Positions 46,439 through 50,565 of a DNA stretch of 64,000 nt are shown one piece after another. The stretch's first letter is position 1. Each line of letters opens with the position of its first letter. The position numbers and the translations under genes were made by a program. A model generated the notes under the pieces. That model was not told the DNA's origin. It searched no databases and saw only the letters and a list, made by a program, of their open reading frames with translations. Origin of the DNA: Akkermansiaceae bacterium (GTDB taxonomy: Bacteria > Verrucomicrobiota > Verrucomicrobiia > Verrucomicrobiales > Akkermansiaceae); contig CAJIZY010000009.1 in NCBI GenBank assembly GCA_905181965.1, forward strand, positions 124,001-188,000. The letters run 5' to 3'.

Positions 46439-46493
46439 TATTGCCAAAATGACCCGCAAACCCACCCTAATTACGGCAATTCAAGTTTTTTAT

Positions 46494-46507
46494 TTTGATT
46501 GATCAAA
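46494..46507. promoter_or_regulatory. Palindrome ahead of the metal ABC operon, possible repressor site
   Basis: TTTGAT-TG-ATCAAA is a perfect 6+6 inverted repeat 21 bp before the start codon of the substrate-binding gene. An operon with a DtxR-type repressor domain needs an operator; this is a candidate only. Confidence 0.4.
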
Positions 46508-46528
46508 GTAATGTGTAGCTTTCCCCGT

Positions 46529-47467
46529 ATGAAGAAATTGTCCCTCCTCGTATCCCTTCTCCTGTTTGGGGCCTGCAGCAACAAAGAAGAAGCCGCAAAA
46601 ACTGATGGAACCGTCGTCACGACAATTGGAATGATTGCCGATGTCTCTCGCCAAATCGCAGGAGACCATCAAGAGATCATCAATTTAATCGGTGAAGGCA
46701 TTGATCCACACATGCACCAGCCTAGCAAATCTGAGATCGACAAGATACAAAGAGCCGGACTCGTCCTCTATAACGGGCTTTTCCTTGAAGGGAAAATGGG
46801 AACCATTCTCAAGAACAGGGCAGATCAGGGCAATCCTGTCTCAGCAGTAGCCGAAGGAATTGAGATTCAAGTTATGGGTTCTAGCGTCCCCGATCCGCAC
46901 CTTTGGATGGACGTATCAATCTGGTCCAAAGTTGCTAAAAAAATTGGCGATGAATTGGCAGCTTTTGATTCCAAAAATGCCGATGAATACCAAAAGCGAC
47001 GCAAAGAATATCAGATAAAGCTCAACGATCTCCATACCTATGCCCTCATGGTATTTCCAACTATCCCTCAAAAGCAACGGGTCCTCGTTACCGCACATGA
47101 TGCCTTTTCATACCTTGGACGTGCCTACGGAATTGAAGTGCGTGGAATTCAGGGAATTTCAACAGAATCTGAAGCTGGGACAAAAGACATCAACGACTTA
47201 GTCACCTACCTCGTTGACAACAAAATTCCGGCAATTTTTGTTGAATCCTCGGTCTCAGAAAAGTCAGTCAAAACAGTAATCGAAGGTGCTGCCGAGAAAG
47301 GTCACACCGTAAAAATCGGAGGAGAGCTTTTCTCCGACGCCATGGGACCTGCCGGAACCTATCAAGGGACCTACATCGGAATGATGGATCACAACATCAC
47401 CACTATTGTGAATGCCCTCGGAGGCAGCGCCCCCGAAGGTGGATTCCAAAACAAACTTAACGATTAA
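46529..47467 (+). CDS. Metal ABC transporter substrate-binding lipoprotein (YtgA/MntA-like)
   Basis: A 312-residue lipoprotein from MKKLSLLVSLLLFGACS, with lipobox ending at Cys17. Cluster A-I family metal-binding residues are seen: His in GEGIDPHMHQPS, His in DPHLWMD, the helix with YQKRRKEY, and HDAFSYLGRAYGIEV; a Glu in VESSVSEKS and an Asp in MGPAGTYQGTY region may complete the site. Specificity (Mn, Zn or Fe) cannot be told. First gene of a five-gene operon. Start chosen at the second Met because a signal peptide begins there. Confidence 0.9.
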   Translation: MKKLSLLVSLLLFGACSNKEEAAKTDGTVVTTIGMIADVSRQIAGDHQEIINLIGEGIDPHMHQPSKSEIDKIQRAGLVLYNGLFLEGKMGTILKNRADQGNPVSAVAEGIEIQVMGSSVPDPHLWMDVSIWSKVAKKIGDELAAFDSKNADEYQKRRKEYQIKLNDLHTYALMVFPTIPQKQRVLVTAHDAFSYLGRAYGIEVRGIQGISTESEAGTKDINDLVTYLVDNKIPAIFVESSVSEKSVKTVIEGAAEKGHTVKIGGELFSDAMGPAGTYQGTYIGMMDHNITTIVNALGGSAPEGGFQNKLND

Positions 47468-49632: not shown

Positions 49633-50565
49633 ATGAAAACACCATTCATCCTTACCTTCGGCCTCATTGGCTCTCTAATCGCAGATGACCAAACAATCGC
49701 CCCCCTTTTATTAGATCGTAATACCCCTTCAAGCGAATCGGGTGCAAAGCGAGCGAACAAAGACTTGGTAGATCAACTTCACATTCTAAGCATATCAGCC
49801 AGCTCAAAAGACGGGCTAGCTCCGGCTCTGGACCATATCTCAGCGACTCCATTTTCCGATAAAACCCAATACCACCTCTTCAACCCAACCCCCAACAATC
49901 TTCTCCGCGACCTTTCCCCGGATCGCCCCGATGCAACCGAATCACCCATTACAGTCGACGCAGGCCGTTATCAAGTTGAGACCTCCCTTTTTGACTATCG
50001 ACGCGACCAAGGCAACGAAACTTTTACCTATGGCCAGATCAACATGAAGGCCGGACTTACTCACAATGTCGACCTTCAGGCCGTCATTGATATCCGCTCC
50101 GAAACTCTCGGCGATTGGACCACCTTTGGAGATCTTACGATTCGTCTAAAATACAACCTCTGGGGTAACGATAGCGGCAACTCTGCTCTCGCCATTATGC
50201 CGTTTGTTACCGCACCCACCCGGAACGACGAATGGCAGAGCGGTATCATCGTCCCTTGGGCAACTGATCTTACTAATGATATTAGCTTTGGTCTCCAAGG
50301 TCAGCTCGACTTCGTCAACGACAATACCGGAACCGAAACAGAATTTCTATTCACCGCAGTAATCGGATACCCCATAATCGGAAACCTTGGTGGATACACC
50401 GAATATATCGGCGTTATCTCCGACGACCGCTACGAATCCTACTACTCTGGTGGCTTCACTTATGAGATTAACAAAAACTTCGTCCTCGACGCCGGAATTC
50501 AAGCTGGCCTGAACAGCGACTCGGAAGACTTCGGTTGCTTCACTGGATTCACCACACGCTTCTAA
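49633..50565 (+). CDS. Outer-membrane beta-barrel (transporter family), inside the metal operon
   Basis: A 310-residue exported protein (MKTPFILTFGLIGSLIADD) of the transporter/MetA-like beta-barrel family: the signature RPDATESPITVDAGRYQVE starts the barrel and strands alternate to a C-terminal Phe (GFTTRF). It lies between the permease-repressor fusion and the second permease, with gaps of 24 and 12 bp, so it is likely co-transcribed. It could give the metal a pore through the outer membrane; not shown. Confidence 0.85.
   Translation: MKTPFILTFGLIGSLIADDQTIAPLLLDRNTPSSESGAKRANKDLVDQLHILSISASSKDGLAPALDHISATPFSDKTQYHLFNPTPNNLLRDLSPDRPDATESPITVDAGRYQVETSLFDYRRDQGNETFTYGQINMKAGLTHNVDLQAVIDIRSETLGDWTTFGDLTIRLKYNLWGNDSGNSALAIMPFVTAPTRNDEWQSGIIVPWATDLTNDISFGLQGQLDFVNDNTGTETEFLFTAVIGYPIIGNLGGYTEYIGVISDDRYESYYSGGFTYEINKNFVLDAGIQAGLNSDSEDFGCFTGFTTRF

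Follow-up and report, generated by a model that had tools for sequence, protein, structure and literature searches.

A gene lying between the two permease genes of a metal ABC operon in an Akkermansiaceae genome probably codes for a diffusion channel of the outer membrane that is independent of TonB and dedicated to a divalent transition metal, with Mn2+ the most likely ion and Fe2+ or Zn2+ possible ones. The probability that we attach to this reading, which is drawn from sequence comparison and structure prediction, is roughly 0.7. The claim rests on genomic context and on conserved operators rather than on the DRPDxTE segment found in many of these barrels, and Mn2+ is favored because of the link to DtxR/MntR-type repressors, the Nramp partners of some relatives, and the TroA-like binding protein of the operon. 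The entry of free divalent metal ions through the outer membrane is frequently ascribed to porins, as for ferrous iron (PMC5599777), and in a review of manganese homeostasis, MnoP, OmpU, and MnoT are among the few cases cited for the outer membrane (PMC9334652). Among the titles and abstract openings listed from openly accessible articles, no earlier description of a PF13557/COG4313 protein in metal uptake was found.

The window, i.e., the whole stretch of 64,000 nucleotides that was analyzed, carries a five-gene operon of the TroABCD/YtgABCD type on its plus strand. Its first gene (46529..47467) codes for a substrate-binding lipoprotein (PF01297) whose closest solved relative is TroA; the start at 46529 was picked by inspection, on account of a signal sequence and a lipobox, while the mechanical open reading frame begins at 46499. 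It is followed by the genes for an ABC ATPase (PF00005; 47468..48243) and for permease B (PF00950; 48256..49608), to which a C-terminal DtxR-like domain (PF02742) is fused. Then come the barrel gene (49633..50565) and the gene for permease C (PF00950; 50578..51494). The preliminary description had placed the barrel between two permease genes with short gaps, which is indeed the case: 24 and 12 bases surround it in the window. The binding protein keeps the ligand residues of TroA, which we take to be three histidines and one aspartate. These retained ligands fail to separate Mn from Zn or Fe, and the metal could thus not be identified from them.

In the window, the binding protein and barrel genes are open, while small indels break the frames of the ATPase gene, of permease B (twice), and of permease C (once) relative to an Akkermansiaceae metagenome-assembled genome, L091. 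In the latter, the barrel is 96% identical to that of the window and all five genes are open with the same domains, separated by gaps of 0, 12, 23, and 12 bases. The PF02742 domain of its permease (L091:5619-6977) covers residues 372-427 with 41.8 bits against a cut-off of 27, a threshold that the broken fragment of the window does not reach (23.0 bits). The frame breaks are most simply attributed to assembly error, given that the genome is a 2.64-Mb assembly of 24 contigs rated 61.6% complete; gene decay might also be responsible. The operon shares a TroA-like binding protein, an ATPase, two ABC-3 permeases, and a permease-DtxR fusion with TroABCD and chlamydial YtgABCD. Permease B is the free-living counterpart of chlamydial YtgC-YtgR, a permease-repressor fusion (PMC5599777). 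The portion of the chlamydial account drawn on here names no outer-membrane channel gene and suggests porins or unknown receptors instead (PMC5599777).

The barrel gene has an ATG start and an uninterrupted frame of 310 residues, and its product is COG4313-like. A Pfam profile search yielded a single PF13557 ('Phenol_MetA_deg') match, scoring 83.2 bits where the cut-off is 22 (E 4e-23), and neither a Plug nor a receptor domain; no family matched in an NCBIfam search. A TonB-dependent receptor, with its Plug and 22-stranded barrel, was discarded as an identity in view of the 12 predicted strands and of this lack of Plug or receptor matches. The proposal that the channel replaces a TonB receptor had to be abandoned as worded, because TonB plug domains occur in 58/58 relatives searched, including the genome of the window itself (6 matches).

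When 97 related genomes were searched with the window barrel protein alone, 46 yielded a match, and the surroundings of all 46 were labeled. In 39 of them the barrel gene lies in or beside a metal ABC operon, in one of three positions: in the gap between permeases B and C (16/46, a mere remnant in G004), between the binding protein and ATPase genes (13/46), or directly before the binding protein gene (10/46). These positions come from our own HMM and tblastn labels rather than from curated annotation; at contig ends the binding protein is sometimes the only partner visible (e.g., L054, L127, and L142), and G084, counted among the 39, likewise has only this protein beside its barrel. Two further barrel genes (G087, G093) precede an Nramp gene, and in both cases the gene of a DtxR-family regulator runs in the opposite direction; two others (G031, G074) adjoin a DtxR-family gene only. 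For the last three (G082, G083, and G064, a weak 42-bit match), our searches revealed no ABC, Nramp, or DtxR neighbors.

Within the genus (27 genomes, that of the window included), a barrel or its remnant is present in 16 genomes and no barrel in 11. In eight of these 11, the operon was examined and lacks the barrel, the permease genes being at most about 190 bases apart. The barrel is thus recurrent but dispensable, and metal uptake must work without it, since it is missing from 11/27 genomes of the genus and from 258/288 of the phylum-wide sample described below. Two points raised in the preliminary description hold only in part. The arrangement had been called unusual for this operon type, which may be true of the textbook operon, but the barrel is recurrent in this order of Verrucomicrobiota; what is special is the slot between permeases B and C, which is confined to one clade of the barrel tree. 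As to a possible absence from the operons of relatives, 11/27 genomes of the genus do lack the gene, and yet 39/46 barrels found sit in or beside the operon. Decaying copies are also seen in the genus: that of G004 (L074:5162-5572) has shrunk to a short remnant, and that of G013 (L010:1504-2223) is interrupted by a TAG codon in frame.

Relatives were also sought among named genomes (one per species, 84,980 species) with a single degenerate pattern, [LM][SAE][TPA]DRPDxTE, which retrieved 449 of them. Among the best 80 of these 449, 51 belong to or adjoin a metal ABC operon, six of these loci showing a fourth position, after permease C; six are linked to a ZIP importer gene, one precedes an Nramp gene, three have a DtxR gene only, and 19 have none of these genes. 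Nine of the latter carry an operator (see below), so that 10/80 are left without partner, repressor, or operator. The six ZIP-linked clusters all belong to Planctomycetota; five include a multicopper oxidase gene, and four of those five a DtxR-type gene. In L117:148-4102, L118, L121, and L126 (Planctomycetota), genes for a DtxR-family protein, a multicopper oxidase, the barrel, and a ZIP importer are clustered, the role of the oxidase being unexplained. Outside of Planctomycetota and Verrucomicrobiota, barrels were found in a Desulfarculales metagenome-assembled genome (L156) and in Hyphomicrobium (L162), with no metal gene recognized nearby; on the tree, the sister of the L156 barrel is one linked to Nramp.

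A survey of 288 genomes across the phylum detected the barrel in 30 of them at E 1e-20 or better (35 matches, those of G262, G352, and G215 falling outside the set of regions retained). The 20 further regions thus obtained comprise seven with ABC genes, five with Nramp, one with DtxR only, two with an operator only, and five with none of these. In L212, the DtxR gene lies between the barrel and Nramp genes. Of the proteins encoded at the eight Nramp loci, six were checked and all six contain both DPGN and MPH, presumably the metal-site motifs of Mn/Fe transporters. Two loci harbor two diverged barrel copies each, in tandem beside Nramp (L205:4680-6764) or flanking a DtxR gene that is transcribed divergently (L209:4499-7127). 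The sister barrels of L200 and L210 have altered segments (DRPSKTD and DRSSKTD, respectively), perhaps reflecting a change of substrate, and no metal gene or operator was recognized in their vicinity.

Two palindromes recur upstream of the first genes of these operons, type A (YTTGA-N4-TCAAR) and type B (TTAG-N6-CTAA, frequently with AAA/TTT flanks). One or the other precedes 83 of 111 distinct operon-leading genes, none of which has both, and 9/22 lone barrel genes, for which 0.1 would be expected. For the 111 regions, 200 randomizations (by first-order Markov sampling rather than exact shuffling) gave a mean of 0.56 and a maximum of 3. The motifs were discovered and counted on the same loci in these main counts; a fairer test is provided by the 20 later regions (approximately 213 kb), where the motifs, now fixed, yield 12 matches, 11 of which sit where a barrel or importer gene begins, as counted by eye and without randomization. 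In the window, a putative DtxR/MntR-type site of type A (46490..46511, core 46494-46507, no strand assigned) lies 17 bases upstream of the position at which the binding protein gene probably starts. Seen alone it is not significant, one site being found where 0.77 would be expected by chance in the window, and its significance is therefore comparative only.

The two operator types are each associated with a particular form of DtxR repressor. Where a long DtxR protein, with a FeoA-like domain, is encoded nearby, 12 loci have type A, one type B, and one neither; with a short DtxR protein, the corresponding numbers are 0, 24, and 12 (two genomes, L045/L105 and L050/L133, are taken twice, both in the class without operator). 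These conserved palindromes are thus putative operators of a DtxR-family repressor, as judged from their sequences and neighbors. No separate DtxR gene adjoining the operon was detected in the loci of the genus that were searched, and operator A may therefore be bound by the DtxR-like domain that permease B carries. A search of the window's own genome returned only the window site when no mismatch was allowed. With one mismatch, it gave nine strand matches (seven places, the window site included) against six for a control pattern; no further members of the regulon are claimed, because this number is little above the control.

The evolutionary history of these associations was approached with a quick tree of 102 barrel rows, many of them related, which gave long-branch warnings; row L099, with a premature stop, was excluded from both the underlying alignment (A2) and the tree. 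The position between permeases B and C, that after permease C, and the pairing with ZIP each fall on one side of a branch, with support values of 99, 99, and 100, respectively, while the two other ABC positions are scattered. Pairing with Nramp needs seven changes for seven rows (six loci), six of which are forced by starred branches, and it thus seems that the same barrel family was paired with Nramp several separate times. What the ABC, Nramp, and ZIP partners have in common is a kind of ion and not protein contacts.

Nramp and ZIP importers carry bare ions, a property that bears on the alternative that the barrel conveys a small metal-binding molecule, such as a metallophore or citrate, rather than the bare ion, whether it imports the complex or exports the free chelator. 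Placement in metal-linked regulons would fit this view, and the studied COG4313 channels have been proposed to transport organic amphipathic molecules. Nevertheless, the metal-related neighbors that were identified comprise importers and repressors, joined in one clade by a multicopper oxidase, and no genes for the synthesis of a chelator stood out near the barrels; we regard this alternative as unlikely. The known members of the family (Pput2725, SphA, and TcpY), which the window protein resembles by its Pfam match above the cut-off and its predicted 12-stranded barrel, have been connected with hydrophobic or aromatic substrates (PMC4493636). The subfamily of the window differs from them by its ties to metal importers and, mostly, by a DRPDxTE segment before strand 1.

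The AlphaFold model, computed from an 80-row alignment, has 12 long strands (residues 113-309), mostly with pLDDT values above 90; the mean is 81, and 217/310 residues are at 90 or more. The N-terminal tail is variable (residues 1-76) and disordered in the model up to residue 61, and the conserved segment, DRPDATES (residues 97-104; pattern DRPDxTES), precedes strand 1. In the VIA list of structural matches, the amyloid exporter FapF ranks first (Z 22.0, 2.3 A over 213 residues, 16% identity), and Pput2725 (4rl8) also matches closely (Z 20.6, 2.3 A over 208 residues). Although FapF is the nearest solved fold in that list, it was the only solved structure retrieved with the 80-row sequence profile, at a mere E 0.41, and the barrel sequence alone retrieved nothing at E 10. 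Residue 100 of the model aligns with residue 1 of the 4rl8 chain, and the N-terminal segment is confidently modeled. The first 14 residues of Pput2725 fill its lumen (PMC4493636); by the model, the conserved N-terminal segment of the window barrel probably folds into the lumen as well.

Four acidic residues located on strands, E116, D147, E257, and D286, are unchanged in all rows of two alignments (33/33 and 80/80), and might, together with the conserved segment, line the path of the metal. Among the histidines, none is kept in over 64% of the alignment rows. DRPDxTE is present in 33/33 rows of the alignment built from whole-protein searches; its conservation in the 80-row alignment is by construction, because the scan pattern contained that segment. 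Among the barrels of the phylum survey, it is found in 13/22 and absent from 9/22, which weakens the idea that such barrels generally possess an acidic selectivity segment. Five of the nine barrels without it (L204, L205a, L211, L212, and L217) keep an ABC or Nramp partner. In one group (L204, L205:4680-5453, L209:4499-5470, L211, L212, L213, and L217), the DRPDx part is absent and only TE...TV..G is kept, directly behind the signal peptide; most members are still accompanied by ABC or Nramp importers.

Conserved charged residues and an N-terminal segment that probably fills the lumen could also bind metal without letting it through, as would be the case if the barrel were not a pore but an outer-membrane metal sensor, or a buffering or docking protein for the substrate-binding protein. 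Nramp and ZIP importers use no binding protein, and no signaling partner was recognized among the labeled neighbors, so that such a function appears quite improbable.

As controls, we took 20 further PF13557 genes of these genomes, the regions of six of them being shortened on one side by contig ends (L172, L173, L175, L182, L184, and L187). None of the 20 has metal-import or DtxR genes nearby; re-searching their regions at E 10 gave a best value of only E 0.23, whereas the same queries produced 1,395 hits on the barrel loci. Operators were likewise found ahead of 0/19 of them, L177 being excluded for its broken frame. Chance placement is therefore excluded, as 39/46 barrels sit in or beside the operon against 0/20 control paralogs. 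The profile of the barrel subfamily has no significant match to that of 12 control paralogs (probability 1.8%, E 0.028). Since these paralogs lack the metal link and the profiles do not align significantly, the link belongs to the subfamily and not to the Pfam family. The idea of an ordinary COG4313 porin for hydrophobic or general small solutes, present in metal operons by chance and kept by neutral linkage, may draw on the family name, on the Pput2725 work pointing to hydrophobics, and on the 11/27 genomes of the genus that do without the barrel, but is very improbable given these controls and is hard to reconcile with the repeated pairing with importers of three unrelated types, with the four positions within operons, and with the operators that precede lone copies.

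A pore for a divalent ion, induced by metal starvation, is thus the most economical model. That the gene encodes a metal-related outer-membrane channel, as the preliminary description had it, is well supported by the swapping of partners, the shared DtxR-linked operators, and the structure prediction. In this model, metal scarcity would cause a DtxR/MntR-family repressor, in the genus possibly the domain fused to permease B, to leave its operator, and the operon would be expressed. The 12-stranded barrel would then raise the supply of metal in the periplasm, from where the species' own inner-membrane importer, of the TroA-type ABC, Nramp, or ZIP kind, would take it up. By analogy, what counts against a simple pore is that Pput2725, a distant relative, allows poor passage of ions and is thought to carry hydrophobic molecules (PMC4493636). 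A role similar to that considered here has been proposed for MnoP of Bradyrhizobium, i.e., passage of Mn2+ through the outer membrane under Mn shortage (PMC9334652). MnoP is a protein of 675 residues in which porin domains of the Brucella-Rhizobium and cyanobacterial types are fused (PMC4827864), whereas the window barrel has 310 residues and a single PF13557 domain; homology between the two is ruled out by size and family.

More broadly, Planctomycetota and Verrucomicrobiota appear, on balance, to have a dedicated class of TonB-independent outer-membrane channels for ions of the Mn2+/Fe2+ type. These would build on the hydrophobic-channel fold of COG4313, would be controlled through two DtxR-type regulons, and would have been freely reshuffled among importers of the ABC, Nramp, and ZIP kinds. 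If so, a misleading family name, 'phenol degradation', would be replaced for these genes, of which 449 relatives were found, and a metal-linked relative would be added to a fold otherwise associated with the uptake of hydrophobic compounds and the export of amyloid. A channel family defined by its regulons would then offer, for a group of phyla, a general and testable answer to the question of how metals cross the outer membrane.
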